37,664 nucleotides of DNA. Source: Planctomycetota bacterium. Its GTDB lineage: Bacteria; Planctomycetota; UBA8108; SXIK01. The stretch lies in contig JACQVW010000259.1 of NCBI GenBank assembly GCA_016209535.1, positions 1 through 37,664 on the forward strand, given 5' to 3'. Shown piece after piece: positions 15,016-37,629 of the stretch. The number at the start of each line of letters is the position of its first letter. Position 1 is the stretch's first letter. A program made the position numbers and the translations under genes. The notes under the pieces are model-generated. The model was not told the DNA's origin. It made no database searches and worked only from the letters and a program-made list of their open reading frames with translations.

Positions 15016-17647
<2,632 letters not shown>

Positions 17648-22914: not shown

Positions 22915-25900
22915 ATGACGACCAAGCTCGCTGGGATCTTGCTCGGCTTCCTCCTGGTCTCGGGCCCGGCCGCGGCCCCGGCCCAGGCGACTGCGGCCGC
23001 GGGCTTCCTCCTTCCCGCTCCCGGAGCCGCCGGCCCCGAGGCCCTCGCGGCGCGGGCCCTCGCGGCGAGGCTCGCCGGGGGGGCGAGGACGCTCGCCCCG
23101 CTCGAGGGCGGCGGCTTCGCCGAGGAGACGGGCGAGCGCGCCGACCTCGACGGCCTCCGCGTCCTCTGGCTGCACCAGGGGGACTCGGCCGAGGATCTCG
23201 GGCCCGCGCAAGAGCCGTGCAATCTTGAGTCTCTGCGCGCCTTCGTCCGCGCCGGCGGCGGCCTCTTCCTCTCGGGCGCCGCCCTCGCGCTCGTGGAGCC
23301 CCTCGGCGTCGAGCCGGTGCGGCCGCGCCGCGGCGGCCCCGGCGCCGACCGCGGCCAGGCGGCGCTCGTCCCCGTCGTGGCGGACCACCCGGCCTTCGAG
23401 GGGCTCTCGCGGGAGGGCCGCCTCGTCCCCGTGAGCGACGCGGGCTACCCCGCCTTCGCCGACTTCCACGGGACCGGAGGGCCGGCCGGGGGCATGCTCC
23501 TCGCCCGCGCGCCGGGCGGCTCCGAGAGCCCGCTCGTCGAGTACTCGCTCGGGGAGGGCCGCATCGTCGCAATGGGCTGGAGGCTGCCGCACTACGCGCA
23601 CGCGGCGAACGCCCACCGCGCGAACCTCGAGCGCCTCACGGCCAACGTCCTCGGCTACCTCGCGGACCGGCGCTCCTGGCGCGAGGTCAAGGTCCCGCCG
23701 GCTCCGGTCCTCGCGGCGAGCGGAGCGCCGGCGCCGGTGGGCCCCGAGGAGTGGCGGTCGCTCGAGCTCGCCGTGCGGGACCTCCTCGAGACCTCCGGCG
23801 AGCGGTACCCCGGAGGCGCCGCGTACCTCGAGCGCCTCGGCGCCTTGAGATCGGCCCACGACGCCGTCCTCTCCGGCGAGAGGACCGCCGGCGGGCCGAC
23901 CCTCGCGCGGCTGCGGGACGACTTCGAGGCGCTCCGCCGCGAGGCCCTCCTCGCGAACCCCCTCCTCGACTTCGAGGAGCTCCTCGTGGTGCGGCGCGGC
24001 GCGGGGAACCTGGGCCTCCCCATGAACTGGGAGGGGAACTCGAGCCTGCCCAGGACGGGCTTCGAGAACGAGATCGCCGTCGTGTCGCCGAGGCGACCGG
24101 AGGCGGCTCCGAGGACGGTCTTCCGGCCCGGGGGCGGGAGGTTCGTGGGGGACCTGGACCTCCACTTCGACGGCGACCGCATGCTCTTCAGCATGCCCGG
24201 CCCGAGCGGCCGCTGGGGCGTCTTCGAGGTCCGCGCCGATGGCTCGGGCCTGCGCGAGCTCGAGCTCGTCCGGGAGCCCGACGTCGACAACTACGACGCT
24301 TGCTACCTGCCCGACGGGGCGGTGATCTTCTGCTCCACGGCCACCTTCACCGGCGTCCCTTGCGTGCGCGGCTCCTCGCACGTCGCGAACCTCTACCGCC
24401 TCGAGCCCTCGGGCGCGATCCGCCGCCTCACGGTGGAGCAAGACCACGACTGGTGCCCGGCGGTGCTCCCGGACGGGCGCGTCCTCTACCTCCGCTGGGA
24501 GTACACGGACATCCCGCACGCCTTCAGCCGCATCCTGTTCTCGATGAACCCCGACGGCACGGGCCAGGGGGAGCACTACGGGAGCAACTCCTACTGGCCG
24601 AACTCGCTCTTCTACGCGCGGCCAGTGCCGGGGCACCCATCGAAGCTCGTCGCGGTCGTCGGCGGCCACCACGACAACCCGCGCATGGGAGAGCTCGTGG
24701 TCCTCGACCCGGCGCTGGGGCGCCGCGAGGCCAGCGGTGCCGTGCAGCGGGTCCCCGGGCGCGGGAGGCGGGTGGAGCCCGTGCTCCTCGACGGCCTCAC
24801 GGCCGAGAGCTGGCCCAAGTTCCTCCATCCCTGGCCCCTCTCCGAGAAGCACTTCCTCGTGGCGGCGAAGCCGGACCCGCAGGCGCTCTGGGGGATCTAC
24901 CTCGCCGACGTCTTCGACAACCTGGTGCTCCTCCGCGAGGAGCGGGGCCAGGCGCTCCTCGAGCCGGTGCCCCTGCGCCCCCTGCCGCGGCCGCCCGTGA
25001 TCCCGCCGAGGGTGGACCTCGCGCGGTCCGACGCCACGGTGTACCTCGCCGACGTCTACGCCGGCGAGGCGATGCGGGGCGTGCCGCGCGGGACCGTGAA
25101 GGCCTTGCGCCTCGTGAGCTACGCCTTCGCGTACCACGGCATGGGCGGCCAGTACGACCGCGTGGGCCTCGACGGTCCCTGGGACGTCCGGAGGATCCTC
25201 GGCACCGTGCCGGTCCGCGACGACGGCTCGGCGAAGTTCCTCGTCCCGGCCCTGACGCCCATCGCGGTCCAGCCCCTCGACGCCTCGGGGGGGGCCGTGC
25301 AGCTCATGCGGAGCTGGTTCACCGCCATGCCGGGTGAGGTCCTCTCGTGCTCCGGCTGCCACGAGCGGAGGAACGACGCGCCGGCCCCGGAGGCCACCTT
25401 GGCCTCCCGGGAGCCGCCGAGCGCGATCGCGCCCTGGCGCGGGCCGCCGCGGGGCTTCAGCTTCGAGCGCGAGGTGCAGCCGGTCCTCGATCGCCTCTGC
25501 GCCGGCTGCCACGACGCCGGCGCGCCGCCGGAGCGCAGGGCGGCTCCGGACCTCACGCGGCGCGAGCCCGTGCACCTCCGGGCCGCGAGCCCCGACTACA
25601 ACGCCGGCTCGCGGTTCCCGCCGGCCTACACCGAGCTCCGGAAGCACGTGCGCGGGCACACGATCGAGAGCGACATCCGCGGCCTCCCGCCCTGGGAGTT
25701 CCACGCCGAGACGACGCGGCTCGTCCAGATGCTCGGGAAGGGCCACGCCGGCGTGCGGCTCGACGCGGAGGCCCTGGACCGCATCGTCACGTGGATCGAC
25801 CTCAACACGCCGGCCCACGGGACGTGGACGGAGGTCTGCGGCGGCGCACGCGTGCGGCGCCTCGCGGAGCGCCGGCGGGAGATGCGCCGGCGCTACGACG

Positions 25901-33330: not shown

Positions 33331-35901
33331 ATGGCGAGCGAACGACGAAGCTGGACGTGGTGGAACAGGGCTGCGGCCCGGTGGGTTGTGTTGGGGGTTC
33401 TGCTTGCGATAAGTACGGGCGCCTTCGGGCAGGCCGACTTCCGCCGCGCCGACTCTAACGCCGACGGCGCTGTGGATATCTCCGACGCCATCAACACGCT
33501 CGCGTACCTTTTCACGGGCGGTGGGCAGGTCGAGTGCTTGGATGCCGTCGACGCCAACGACGACGGCGACGTTGACGTTTCCGATCCCATTTACACTCTC
33601 TTATTTCTCTTCGCGGATGGCCTTGCCCCGCCAGAACCTTTCACTGCGTGCGGCCTCGATTCGTCGCCAGATGGGTTTGGTTGTGAAAGTTTCACTCTCT
33701 GTGCTGTCGAGGTGACCGTCCGTTCGGACAAGCCATGGTACCTGGCCAATGAGACCGCGCTCATTTCCGTGGAGGTGTTGCCACTCGTGCCCAGTGCGCG
33801 GCACGTGCACTTCTCCGTGTTCGAAGTGACGGCCGAGAATGTGTGGACGCTACTCGTGGAGGAAAACCGACCCCTTGGCCAACTGGGAAAGCATGAGTTT
33901 CCTGTCGTTTTGCCTCGGGAGGGCCTCTATGTCGTGGCGGTTCGTCTGATCGGCAACCAGAACGTCGAGCTGGACAGGCAAGACCTCACCGTGGGGGTGA
34001 GACCGGATCTCCCAGAGGCACCGCCCGAGATCCTGACGTTTGAGGTGGCCGCAATCGACGTGCCGGTTGTGCATGATACTGTCCAGACTGCCGCAGCGTC
34101 TCAGGACGCAACCATGCTGCAGCTTGGAAACCAGACCTTGACCGTTATCCTCGAGGATCACACAGATGATCTCCTGAGTCCTGAGGTGCGAGCGCAAGAC
34201 CCGTCGGTGAAACTCTTTCGGGGAGAGCTCGAGGGGAGACCTGGGTCCGAGGTCCGGTTGTCGTTCACCGGCGACTCATTGTCTGACGTGCTTCGGGCCG
34301 CCGTGGATCCCGGTGGAGACGAAGCCAGTATCTACCTCGAGCCAGTTAGCGGAGAGACATCACCAGGGCCGTACATTTGCTATTCTGCGGACGCGGTGGT
34401 GTTTCAGGATGTGCACCCGGGCGGGGAAGGACAGCAGGCTGCCGGGGCTGGCGAGGCGGCAGCGGCGGGAGCAGGCGCGGGTAATCAAATGTCCTGTAGG
34501 GAAATGAGGCTCAATGTCTATTACGACAATGATCCGAAGAAGACTCGGTTTGGCCATATCAACAGGATGGATGCGGTTTTCTCCTCGGAGTTGAATATCA
34601 AGCTCAAGGTAGTGGGCGACCGGCAAATCAACACCGATTGCTATGGTGGTGCGATCTTGGATAGGTTCGCGGCCGATGTGAGCACTAGCTGCGCGGACAT
34701 CGCCCTGCTTTTTACGAACAATACGCGGATTGACTACGGCGGCTTCTTAGGACAAGGCTATTGGGCACGGGGACGATATGCGCAGCCGCCTGTCTGCTGG
34801 GTGCGGGTTCGCGGGTCGGATCATCAAATAGCCGTTACTGCTTGCCAGGAGATCTCCCACGTGCTTGGGGCGAGCGACATGGGGTGCAACACACCAGTGG
34901 GCGCGTGCTCGCATCGCGGGAGGGCGGTTCACGAGCATTGTCTTGGCTTCCTTTGCTGGAATCACTACTCAATCATGTACTCTGAGGCTGGGTTTGGAGT
35001 GACTGTCCACCTTAACTGGCTCGAGGAAGACCGGACTACTATTCGAGCCACGGTCAACTCTGCGGACAACTCCGCTACTGGCCACTTTCCCGTGTGCGGG
35101 AGTGGCCCATCACCGGACGAACCATCCACAATAACTAACTCCATTGGCATGCGGTTCGTCAGGATCGCGCCGGGCAGCTTCCTCATGGGCTCACCGGAGA
35201 GCGAGCGCGGAAGAGTTTGCTGCCCGGCGGAGACATCCCACAGAGTGCGCATCAGTCGCAGTTTTTACATTGGAGTCACGGAAGTTACTCAAGGACAGTA
35301 TCAGACCATCATGGGTACCAATCCGAGCTTTTTCTTTGGTGTTCGAGATGGAGTTGATTACGGCACGAATCCGAACCGACCCGTCGACAGCGTCCGGTGG
35401 AATGACGCCGTGGAGTTTTGTCGTCGCCTCTCGGTGCGCTCCGAGGAGCTCGCCGCTATCCGCTCCTACCGCTTGCCAACTGAGGCGGAATGGGAGTACT
35501 GCTGCCGAGCGGGCACTACGACGCGGTTTTCATTCGGCGATGTTTTCGAATGCAACGACTTCCAGGACCCTTGCGCTTCAGCCAATGAGCACCTGTGGTG
35601 GGTTGGAAACAATGCCCAATTCCCCGACCCACGGTGGGGGACGAAGCCGGTCGGACAGAAAACCCCAAACGCTTGGGGCCTCTATGATATGCATGGAAAC
35701 GTTTACGAATGGTGCCAAGACCGGCTTGTCACCTATCCGGAAGGAGAGGTATCAGATCCGCAAGGTACTTGTGGGAGTGATCGGGTGTGGCGCAGCGGTA
35801 GTTGGAGGGAATACCTAAGGAACTGTCGAGCGGCCTCAAGAACAGGGAGCGCCCAAGGTAGCAACGAAACAGGGTTCAGGGTTGTGCTTTGTGTACAATA
35901 G
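33331..35901 (+). CDS. Secreted dockerin / degenerate zincin / FGE-like protein
   Basis: An 856-residue protein with a signal peptide (about 1-34, VVLGVLLAISTGAFGQ). Two dockerin-like loops come first: DSNADGAVDISDAINTLAYL and DANDDGDVDVSDPIYTLLFL. The middle (about 130-590) looks like a secreted metzincin: the region TACQEISHVLGASDMGC fits HExxHxxGxxD, but the first His is Gln506, so zinc binding and peptidase action are doubtful. The end (about 605-850) is an FGE/SUMF1-type domain: FVRIAPGSFLMGSPESE, YRLPTEAEWEYCCRAGTTTR and NAWGLYDMHGNVYEWCQDR. GGGAGGAG six bases before the ATG supports the start. GC is much lower (near 55 percent) than in the neighbours and codon use is mixed, so this gene was probably acquired from another genome. 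It lies between the broken integrase and a full recombinase. Confidence 0.88.
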   Translation: MASERRSWTWWNRAAARWVVLGVLLAISTGAFGQADFRRADSNADGAVDISDAINTLAYLFTGGGQVECLDAVDANDDGDVDVSDPIYTLLFLFADGLAPPEPFTACGLDSSPDGFGCESFTLCAVEVTVRSDKPWYLANETALISVEVLPLVPSARHVHFSVFEVTAENVWTLLVEENRPLGQLGKHEFPVVLPREGLYVVAVRLIGNQNVELDRQDLTVGVRPDLPEAPPEILTFEVAAIDVPVVHDTVQTAAASQDATMLQLGNQTLTVILEDHTDDLLSPEVRAQDPSVKLFRGELEGRPGSEVRLSFTGDSLSDVLRAAVDPGGDEASIYLEPVSGETSPGPYICYSADAVVFQDVHPGGEGQQAAGAGEAAAAGAGAGNQMSCREMRLNVYYDNDPKKTRFGHINRMDAVFSSELNIKLKVVGDRQINTDCYGGAILDRFAADVSTSCADIALLFTNNTRIDYGGFLGQGYWARGRYAQPPVCWVRVRGSDHQIAVTACQEISHVLGASDMGCNTPVGACSHRGRAVHEHCLGFLCWNHYSIMYSEAGFGVTVHLNWLEEDRTTIRATVNSADNSATGHFPVCGSGPSPDEPSTITNSIGMRFVRIAPGSFLMGSPESERGRVCCPAETSHRVRISRSFYIGVTEVTQGQYQTIMGTNPSFFFGVRDGVDYGTNPNRPVDSVRWNDAVEFCRRLSVRSEELAAIRSYRLPTEAEWEYCCRAGTTTRFSFGDVFECNDFQDPCASANEHLWWVGNNAQFPDPRWGTKPVGQKTPNAWGLYDMHGNVYEWCQDRLVTYPEGEVSDPQGTCGSDRVWRSGSWREYLRNCRAASRTGSAQGSNETGFRVVLCVQ

Positions 35902-35940: not shown

Positions 35941-37035
35941 TCAAATCGGCACGTCGTGGCTGGCGGACTCCTTGGTCGTCCGCCGGCGCTTGTCGTAGAT
36001 CTGGGTCGTCGTGACGTGGCGGTGGCCGAGGAGCTCCTGGACCTTGCGGATGTCGACGCCAGCGTCGAGGAGCAAGGTCGCGGTCGTTGCGCGAATGGAG
36101 TGGGGGTTGTAGACGCACTCGCGGACGGGGGTACCGTCCGCGCTTTTTAAGGGCTGCCCAGGATTCTCGGGGTCCGGCCGGTCGCGCATGGCCCCGGGAA
36201 GTTTCTCCAAGTAGTCCAGGAGCAGGTAGTACATGGCGGTGGGGGTGAAGGCCCGGTCGGAGAGGGCTTGCGAGCGCGACCCCCGCCGCGGCCGAAAGAG
36301 GGGCCCGGCGGTGAGGCCGGAGTGCGCGAGGTACTCGCGGATGGCGTCGCGGCAGGCGGGGTGAATGCCGACGGCACGGCGGCGGCCACCCTTCTCCGAG
36401 AGCGTGAGCTTGGCGTCCTCCTCGTCGTCGTGGAAGTCCGAGACCTTCAAGCGGCAGACCGAGGCGAGCCTGGCGCCCGTGTAGAGGTAGGTTTTTAAGA
36501 TCGCGCGGTCGCGGAAGTCCACGAGCGTGTCGCCGGCGGGCATGGCCATGAGCTGCCGGGCACGGGTGGCGGTGAGGTGCCGCGTCTCCTCGCGGGCGTC
36601 GGTTGCCTCCCGGCCGACAAACTGCGCGTGCGCGGGGTTTGGCACGGTGATCGGGAGGCGGAGCTCGGCCGCCGCCGCGGCGAGGTACTTATAGAAGGAA
36701 GAGAGGGAGGAGATCCGGCGGTTCAAGGTCTTGGGCGCCGCGCCTTTGGCTTTCAGTTCCTCGCGCCAGGCGTGCACCTCACCCACGCTGACGGTGACGA
36801 GCTGGTGGGCGTCGCCAGGCCAGGGAATGCCGAGGTACCTGACGAACGCCATGACGTCTTGGCGGTAGGCGCGCTCCGTGTGCGGCGAGGACCTCCGCGT
36901 CACCCACGTCTCGAAGATCTCGGCGACCGACGAGTAAAAACGCTCGACCTTCTCGGTGACGGCAGGTGTCACCCGGCCGGCAAGGATCGGCGGCAAGCCG
37001 GCGGGCTTCCGGACGACCAGCTCGCGTGCGGTCAT
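35941..37035 (-). CDS. Tyrosine recombinase (XerC/D-like integrase)
   Basis: A 364-residue site-specific recombinase. The N-terminal SAM-like domain (about 35-130) is followed by a catalytic domain with the full set: Arg189 in YTGARLAS, Lys215 in SEKGGRR, His312 and Arg315 in NPHSIRAT, His338 in LLGHRHVTTTQ, and nucleophile Tyr347 in QIYDK. An extra loop between about 283 and 308 (DRPDPENPGQPLKSADGTP) is longer than in XerC/D. GGGAGGA lies about eight bases before the ATG. It is the last gene of a three-gene minus-strand operon with two small ORFs, and a 12-6-12 palindrome lies upstream. It could mobilise an element, resolve dimers or act on that palindrome. Confidence 0.93.
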   Translation of the reverse strand: MTARELVVRKPAGLPPILAGRVTPAVTEKVERFYSSVAEIFETWVTRRSSPHTERAYRQDVMAFVRYLGIPWPGDAHQLVTVSVGEVHAWREELKAKGAAPKTLNRRISSLSSFYKYLAAAAAELRLPITVPNPAHAQFVGREATDAREETRHLTATRARQLMAMPAGDTLVDFRDRAILKTYLYTGARLASVCRLKVSDFHDDEEDAKLTLSEKGGRRRAVGIHPACRDAIREYLAHSGLTAGPLFRPRRGSRSQALSDRAFTPTAMYYLLLDYLEKLPGAMRDRPDPENPGQPLKSADGTPVRECVYNPHSIRATTATLLLDAGVDIRKVQELLGHRHVTTTQIYDKRRRTTKESASHDVPI

Positions 37036-37038
37036 GAT

Positions 37039-37203
37039 TCAGTCCTCCCGAGTGATCTCGCCGGGGAGGTCGGGGAAGAGCCGCGCGGCGAGGCGCTCGC
37101 CCTCGTCGAGGTCCTCGGCGAAGCCGAGCTCCAAGAGGACCTCGCCGACCGAGCGGCGGGTCGGCTCCGGGTAAGGGAGGGGAGTGAAGGTGAGCTCGTC
37201 CAT
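37039..37203 (-). CDS. Small acidic hypothetical protein, recombinase operon
   Basis: A 54-residue protein, MDELTFTPLPYPEPTRRSVG followed by a helical Leu/Glu part, ending GEITRED. No domain is recognised. GGAG lies nine bases before the ATG, and the stop is three bases before the recombinase start, so translation is likely coupled. It could be a recombination accessory factor; the sequence does not show more. Confidence 0.6.
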   Translation of the reverse strand: MDELTFTPLPYPEPTRRSVGEVLLELGFAEDLDEGERLAARLFPDLPGEITRED

Positions 37204-37207
37204 GGGG

Positions 37208-37561
37208 TCAGGCTCCAGTCGACGGGACGGCGTGCTTGAGGATCTCGCGTGCCACACGGTCGAAGTGGGCCTCGACGCGAGGCTCAAGGCGGTCGTTGAC
37301 CAAACCTTTCGTCCCGTACTCCACGCCGAGGCGGAAGGCTTTGAGGGCGACGAGCATGGCAAGGGGCGGGGGTGTGAAGCGCTCGAGCTCGGGCGCCTTC
37401 GTGATGGCGTAGAGTCGCCGCCGCTCTTCGCTCACCAAGACCTCGAGTTCTTTCACCAGGTTCGCGGCCCGGGAACGGGACTTGGACATGTCCATACGGG
37501 TTTCGTGTTCTTCGGGGGCCGAAGCCGGCCCCCCGGGGAGGTCGGGGCCCCCTGTGGACAA
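37208..37561 (-). CDS. Hypothetical protein, first gene of recombinase operon
   Basis: A 117-residue protein from a TTG with GGAAGGA just before it; an ATG at 37495 is an alternative start without a good ribosome site. From about residue 25 it is mostly helical: SRAANLVKELEVLVSEERRR, LAMLVALKAFRLGVEYGTKG, VEAHFDRVAREILKHA. No known domain. It ends four bases before the next small gene, so the three genes form one transcript. The leader is about 30 bases from the proposed promoter. Confidence 0.6.
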   Translation of the reverse strand: MSTGGPDLPGGPASAPEEHETRMDMSKSRSRAANLVKELEVLVSEERRRLYAITKAPELERFTPPPLAMLVALKAFRLGVEYGTKGLVNDRLEPRVEAHFDRVAREILKHAVPSTGA

Positions 37562-37594: not shown

Positions 37595-37624
37595 CACTTA
37601 CGATAACGGCTTTTATCGTAAGTG
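37595..37624. promoter_or_regulatory. 12-6-12 perfect palindrome: Xer/dif-like site or operator
   Basis: CACTTACGATAA (37595-37606), spacer CGGCTT, and TTATCGTAAGTG (37613-37624) form perfect arms. Trimmed to 11-6-11 the shape is that of dif sites; the inner ATAA/TTAT ends match and TTATCGTAAGT agrees with the E. coli XerD half-site TTATGTTAAAT at 8 of 11 positions. It also covers the spacer of a possible promoter for the recombinase operon, so it could be a repressor operator instead. Confidence 0.6.
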
Positions 37625-37629
37625 GTCAA
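37600..37629 (-). promoter_or_regulatory. Possible sigma-70 promoter of the recombinase operon
   Basis: On the minus strand TTGACC (37629-37624) and TATCGT (37605-37600) are separated by 18 bases. The -35 box is 5 of 6 and the -10 is 4 of 6. The palindrome fills the spacer and the -10 box. The inferred start gives a leader of about 30 bases to the TTG at 37561. Confidence 0.4.

Follow-up and report, generated by a model that had tools for sequence, protein, structure and literature searches.

A dif-like palindrome ahead of a recombinase operon in a Planctomycetota contig: probable core site of a plasmid-type recombination module

The 37,664-nucleotide contig JACQVW010000259.1 of a Planctomycetota bacterium (assembly GCA_016209535.1), here called the window, carries near its right end a palindrome of 30 bases, in which two 12-base arms flank a spacer of 6 base pairs (bp; 12-6-12), directly ahead of a compact minus-strand operon that ends in a gene for a tyrosine recombinase, P0001. 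We propose, with a probability of roughly 0.78 on comparative evidence, that this palindrome is the core crossover site of the recombinase encoded in the same operon, the two belonging to a plasmid-type site-specific recombination module. Plasmid recombinase-plus-site modules of this kind are known; what appears to be new is the GATAA-N6-TTATC variant. The operon also holds two small open reading frames (ORFs A and B). The open-access papers listed in our searches gave no description of a plasmid recombinase family with an upstream GATAA-N6-TTATC, which does not prove its absence from print.

The palindrome and its conservation beside tyrosine recombinases

Direct reading of positions 37595-37624 bears out the perfect arms (complementary at 12/12 positions), the 6-bp spacer and the inner ends ATAA and TTAT claimed by the initial annotation. 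Arm symmetry is by itself weak evidence and only mildly unusual: 60 dinucleotide shuffles of the window produced three perfect 12-6-12 palindromes of any sequence, or about 0.05 per window, and the window also contains a GC-rich 12-8-12 palindrome. The AT-rich core is the stronger evidence, because the window has a GC content of 71%, ATAA-N6-TTAT appeared in none of the 60 shuffles, and it occurs at four distinct places in the organism's own assembly. At two of the four, the window and the joined ends of contigs C101 and C274, a tyrosine recombinase gene lies downstream of the core. The palindrome as a whole is single in the window, with no further match at up to three mismatches and none in 100 shuffles; a search for further copies in the own assembly, suggested by the initial annotation, likewise found no second copy at that threshold (9,100,469 bases in 906 contigs, 80% complete).

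The core is conserved in position beside homologues of P0001. The nearest relatives, the recombinases of plasmid pK2D_1 (61% identical) and of G264 (54%), both have it upstream of their genes, as ACTTATGATAA-AATCTG-TTATCGTAAGT and GAACACTGATAA-AATCGG-TTATCTTCGTTC, respectively. A scan of genome contigs gave 53 homologue loci, of which 25 were near-full (at least 45% identity, a match from query residue 62 or before to 349 or beyond, and at least 100 bp upstream); these are 45-64% identical to P0001. An exact GATAA-N6-TTATC precedes the recombinase match by at most 700 bp in 17 of the 25, one of which (L081) is the G264 contig again, and the records concerned include ones titled Planctomycetes, Acidobacteria, Verrucomicrobiia and Binatia. 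The motif has a background of 0.1-1.3 per Mb in the 17 genomes searched, and a chance match within 700 bp has a probability below 1/1000.

The same arrangement extends to distant relatives on plasmids, 894 records of which match P0001 at 1e-5; no relative was confirmed on viral contigs. At 1e-30, tblastn returned 19 plasmid records, pK2D_1 and 18 others, all 18 of which were retrieved and examined. Their recombinases are only 30-35% identical to P0001, and in 14 of the 18 an ATAA-N6-TTAT palindrome, its arms paired at 10 or more of 12 positions, lies 10 to 1084 bp upstream of the recombinase; 13 of these sites carry GATAA, and the remaining one (L173) has CTATAA/TTATAG. Downstream of the same 18 genes there were three cores, with 5-6 of 12 pairs, and none with at least 10. 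P0001 is homologous to a group of plasmid recombinases with an upstream GATAA-N6-TTATC site, and an inverted-arm site lies upstream of its operon as it does there. In a recombinase tree, P0001 groups with the Planctomycete/Acidobacteria rows, and the recombinases of contigs C101, C537 and C775 of its own assembly fall elsewhere on long branches; deep forks were not used, owing to the very long branch of a frameshift-misread sequence (site_L075), and L090, with four stops, was left out. No common partner gene emerged from a scan of neighbours (82/112 neighbouring ORFs, 18 loci), in which single plasmid-type matches (RepA_C, ArdC, ParA-like) stood amid chromosomal-type ones.

Half-sites and natural breakpoints

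Covariation of the arms was assessed in an alignment of 33 sites, made up of 17 genome loci, 14 plasmid loci, pK2D_1 and the window. These were picked by the ATAA-N6-TTAT pattern, which fixes positions 1-4 from the spacer by construction, and the evidence therefore begins at position 5 and runs outward; only homologues with a site were taken in, and of two cores in one locus the one with the better arms was used (in L077 the AATCAG core, by hand). Positions 6-11 are complementary in 25, 28, 29, 30, 28 and 27 of the 33 sites, against 38, 33, 27, 32, 35 and 60% expected were the two sides independent, and each position shows two to four types of pair; the outer arms thus vary among elements, yet remain inverted. 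We rejected an RNA hairpin as the source of this pattern, since G-T wobbles are not in excess among the arm mismatches (8/44), which argues for symmetry at the level of DNA. Further, similarity of the outer arms tracks that of the recombinases (Mantel r 0.46, 0 of 2000 permutations), and equally long flanks do so less (r 0.11, p 0.015); shared descent contributes to both correlations. The asymmetry of the spacer is itself conserved, the usual form being AAT..G (AAGCCG in the window), and in 4 of the 33 sites (L078, L162, L169 and L173) AAT... is read solely on the opposite strand. Such a spacer is more in keeping with a polar crossover region than with a promoter.

Two observations on related sites may be recorded here. 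At L155 (10120-10135) the two arms around the spacer AATCTG seem to derive from separate arm families, as though the site were a hybrid. A second class of site, with the spacer AGGACG or AGGACA (L138, L139, L142, L150, L151 and L154), is mostly found near recombinases that share about 25% identity with P0001 and form a different clade in the same kinds of genome; in L138 and L142 it stands beside an AAT..G-type site, at a distance of 31 bp in one case and 89 bp in the other.

Natural breakpoints at the palindrome come from Pseudomonas plasmids. A query of 2.1 kb from Pseudomonas cerasi p58T1, with the plasmid's site at positions 978-1007, matched 74 plasmid records. Among the 40 rows listed, 11 span the site (the query's own record included), 14 begin at query 974-989, the left edge of the palindrome, and the match to pPSR1 stops at 1007, its right edge; since near copies are numerous among these plasmids, the rows outnumber the independent events. 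In direct alignment with p58T1, pPSR1 keeps an identity of 84-100% per 25 bp as far as the end of the palindrome, and drops to about 20% right past it; three other plasmids (L182, L183 and L184) are unrelated to the left of the palindrome and 84-93% identical to its right, and a fifth (L185) is alike on both sides. From these alignments, the breakpoints look like natural crossing-over at the palindrome.

The operon and its promoter

The features at the end of the window are collected in Table 1. The three-gene operon ending in a full tyrosine recombinase, as first described, is borne out by the coordinates, by gaps of 4 and 3 bp between the genes, and by a complete recombinase gene. P0001 has a Phage_integrase catalytic domain with the R-K-H-R-H-Y residues, and passes as a tyrosine recombinase. 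Residues R189, K215, H312, R315, H338 and Y347, which we take to be the catalytic set, are present in P0001 and invariant among three homologues.

Table 1. Predicted site, promoter match and genes at the right end of the window (aa, amino acids)
Feature	Coordinates	Strand	Remarks
Core recombination site (predicted)	37595..37624	none	Arms CACTTACGATAA / TTATCGTAAGTG; spacer CGGCTT, which is AAGCCG on the gene strand
Sigma-70-like promoter match	37600..37629	-	TTGACC-18-TATCGT; 9/12 consensus matches; overlaps site
ORF A	37208..37495	-	95 aa from ATG; 117 aa from TTG at 37561
ORF B	37039..37203	-	54 aa
Tyrosine recombinase (P0001)	35941..37035	-	364 aa; Phage_integrase and N-terminal SAM-like domain

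Neither ORF A nor ORF B has a family match, or a relative on the plasmids or in the homologue loci compared. They occupy a position in which relatives often have toxin-antitoxin-like pairs: between the site and the recombinase of the plasmid relatives there is often a small gene or such a pair, for example a nucleotidyltransferase and a small gene in pSCD, DUF4160 and DUF2442 in pPNAP05, and CopG and RelE/ParE in Methylomonas, and in other plasmid relatives a divergent toxin-antitoxin-like pair lies on the opposite side of the site. ORF A might possibly be half of an exchangeable small-gene pair; to call the two a toxin-antitoxin pair is a guess, because no relatives were found.

The initial annotation placed the palindrome 33 bp before the operon, which holds for the TTG start of ORF A and not for its ATG, 99 bp away. 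It also read the palindrome as covering the -35 to -10 spacer of a promoter, and proposed that recombination, or binding by the encoded protein, could switch the operon's own expression. The overlap with the promoter match is real, and takes in the -10 element as well as the spacer. Self-switching by recombination appears unlikely, because no partner site is present in the assembly and TTGAC stands at the arm edge (the -35 offset) in only 2 of the 33 related sites, so that the promoter match is not conserved; the few reversals of the asymmetric spacer add to this. Control through binding, in the form of repression of the operon, stays plausible.

Immediately inward of the operon, a gene with an FGE-sulfatase domain (33331-35901) has a GC content of 58.6%, against 72.5% in the first 33.3 kb, and the DNA at the right end of the contig may have been acquired. 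The contig terminates 40 bp past the site, and its last 19 bases, used to look for an adjoining contig, have no other occurrence in the assembly. Elsewhere in the assembly, contig C354 carries a perfect palindrome (23605-23636; L065), TAGCGGGTGATAA-CACCCT-TTATCACCCGCTA, with no recombinase on the contig, which ends about 150 bp further on.

Known systems, alternatives and implications

The closest parallel in layout, and one with experimental measurements, is RecHS of IncA/C plasmids, which supports RecA-independent recombination, needs a plasmid-encoded recombinase, and joins and resolves cointegrates (PMC5587640). On pR55 (L186), RecHS resembles the window in its geometry and in the order of site, two small genes and tyrosine recombinase, the last (WP_000543934, 2881-3891) lying 1156 bp downstream of it. 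That recombinase is 24.5% identical to P0001 over 261 aa, and about 30% to four of the plasmid relatives. By analogy, RecHS is a relative in kind and not a close one. Among the plasmid dimer-resolution sites set beside RecHS in PMC5587640, rfsF with ResD of F and loxP with Cre of P1 have inverted repeats of 10-14 bp and spacers of 6-8 bp, a likeness to the window in site layout.

Among the alternatives, the palindrome could be the internal resolution site (IRS) of a Tn3-family transposon, of the TnpI/IRS type. According to PMC7157771, Tn4430 and Tn5401 resemble the window in having a tyrosine recombinase with an inverted-repeat core directly upstream, and toxin-antitoxin pairs occur near the site in that group. 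The G264 relative is itself such a transposon, with TnpA (DDE_Tnp_Tn3) beside the recombinase and, read by eye, a Tn3-like end beyond the site. Further, contigs C101 (18905; L062) and C274 (15378; L063) of the own assembly overlap by 28 bp exactly at their ATAA-N6-TTAT core, and are therefore one place, where the core lies 93 bp upstream of the gene for another recombinase of the organism (295 aa), with a truncated DUF4158 gene of Tn3 type downstream. With the TnpA of G264 as query, however, no Tn3 transposase was found in the window, the contig ending 40 bp beyond the site, and other P0001-type loci tested had none either, except for one 72-aa match in L088. Nor are accessory half-sites in excess, with 13 found against 14.5 expected over 31 loci (the upstream side of the window is missing), and no counterparts of the DR1/DR2 repeats of TnpI units were detected in the family. 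We consider this explanation doubtful.

An integrative element, with P0001 as its integrase and the palindrome as an attP- or attL-like site, seems improbable. It would account for the recombinase adjoining the site and for a junction-like stretch on contig C893 (2490-2518; L055), which shares with the window the left half-site and some of the same outer flank, CCTCTTGACCAGTTACGATAA, diverges inside the spacer, and coincides with the stop codon of a 458-aa ORF. Such a stretch might have been left by a crossover with another place in the genome, or it may be an old duplication. It is, however, the single such half-site, no att pair or target gene was found, most relatives keep two intact, symmetric arms, and several relatives are on circular plasmids.

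It is unlikely that the palindrome serves as an operator only, a repressor site for the recombinase or for the product of ORF A or B with no part in recombination. Its overlap with the promoter match, its place directly ahead of the operon, and the 10-22 bp that separate the site from the annotated start in several relatives would all fit. An operator would not, however, explain why the site is kept with the recombinase although the intervening genes differ or are absent, why the asymmetric spacer is conserved, yet reversed in a few sites, while the -35 is not, or why natural breakpoints in DNA similarity fall at the site.

The initial annotation called the palindrome dif-like, which stands for its geometry; that it is a recombination-type site belonging to the operon's recombinase is supported by comparative conservation and the breakpoints. 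That it is dif itself, the chromosomal site of the source organism, is very improbable. The geometry and the ATAA/TTAT ends speak for it, as do the absence of any match to the dif-like pattern TTATGTNAANT in the assembly and the failure of dif prediction for Planctomycetes reported in PMC3025954. Against these, P0001 scores 131.5 and 127.9 bits with the NCBIfam XerC and XerD models, far below their cut-offs of 335.15 and 329.6; the inner motif is GATAA/TTATC rather than the CATAA/TTATG given for Escherichia coli dif in PMC3025954; and the family is largely on plasmids, its nearest relatives included. The assembly also has other, better-scoring tyrosine recombinases, and one same-family genome compared had no close homologue of P0001 (best 31%). 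XerS/difSL, as described in PMC5357621, is similar in that a single recombinase is genetically linked to its dif-like site; that site is chromosomal, FtsK-linked and 31 bp long with an 11-bp centre, whereas the window has a 6-bp spacer, perfect arms and a plasmid-type setting. Finally, a chance palindrome, which the shuffle frequency of such palindromes would allow, has a negligible probability, already contradicted by conservation of position and sequence with the recombinase.

Several points weigh against assigning the palindrome to P0001 as its crossover site. The exact site is absent from the searched stretch in 8 of the 25 near-full homologues (L068, L072, L082, L086, L088, L089, L090 and L097), although L086 has a two-mismatch form with the spacer AATCTG unbroken, and 4 of the 18 plasmid relatives (L161, L171, L172 and L178) have no such upstream site. 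In a Tautonia contig (L179), the like-armed site of a recombinase 62% identical to P0001 (2199-3239) stands at 15620, 12 kb upstream, as if DNA had been inserted between them. The assembly shows no recombination partner for the site, and the nine window ORFs scanned include no plasmid backbone gene. RecHS has the inner core TTAAAA/TTTGAA in place of GATAA/TTATC, and its recombinase is not identified in PMC5587640. The p58T1-type breakpoints could stem in part from homologous exchange of modules or from divergence of flanks.

If P0001 does act there, two protomers would bind two half-sites of 11-13 bp, in which the GATAA by the spacer is common to nearly the whole family and the outer bases are specific to the element, and four protomers on two sites would swap strands inside the spacer of 6 bp. 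The module would ordinarily serve the plasmid or mobile element on which it sits, by resolving that element's multimers and cointegrates, and the window piece may be, or may have been, such an element. Between replicons with matching sites, the same reaction could join DNA or swap what flanks the site. Given the position of the site just in front of the operon, we also propose that bound recombinase may lower transcription of its own operon, for which TnpI of Tn5401, whose binding modulates expression according to PMC7157771, offers a comparison.

Site-plus-enzyme relatives on plasmids of many bacteria probably keep such elements single-copy. More tentatively, the window may hold one member of an unnamed, cross-phylum family of cassettes that each unite a dif-like site, its arms specific to the element, with an exchangeable small-gene pair (ORFs A and B being a new pair of toxin-antitoxin type) and a recombinase, all travelling together; their shared GATAA-N6-TTATC core would let plasmids swap DNA on either side, reshuffling stability modules among replicons. 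Many plasmid tyrosine recombinases have no annotated target site in the records examined; here, the sequence itself points to the target, a 12-6-12 palindrome upstream of the gene, whose inner core is nearly constant and whose outer arms are specific to the enzyme, in bacteria ranging from Planctomycetes to Pseudomonas. Such upstream palindromes yield testable pairs of enzyme and site, and offer WP_000543934 as a candidate for the RecHS recombinase of IncA/C plasmids. If the palindrome is indeed the crossover site of the recombinase encoded beside it, then sites of this kind would explain the sharp boundaries of modules in plasmids.
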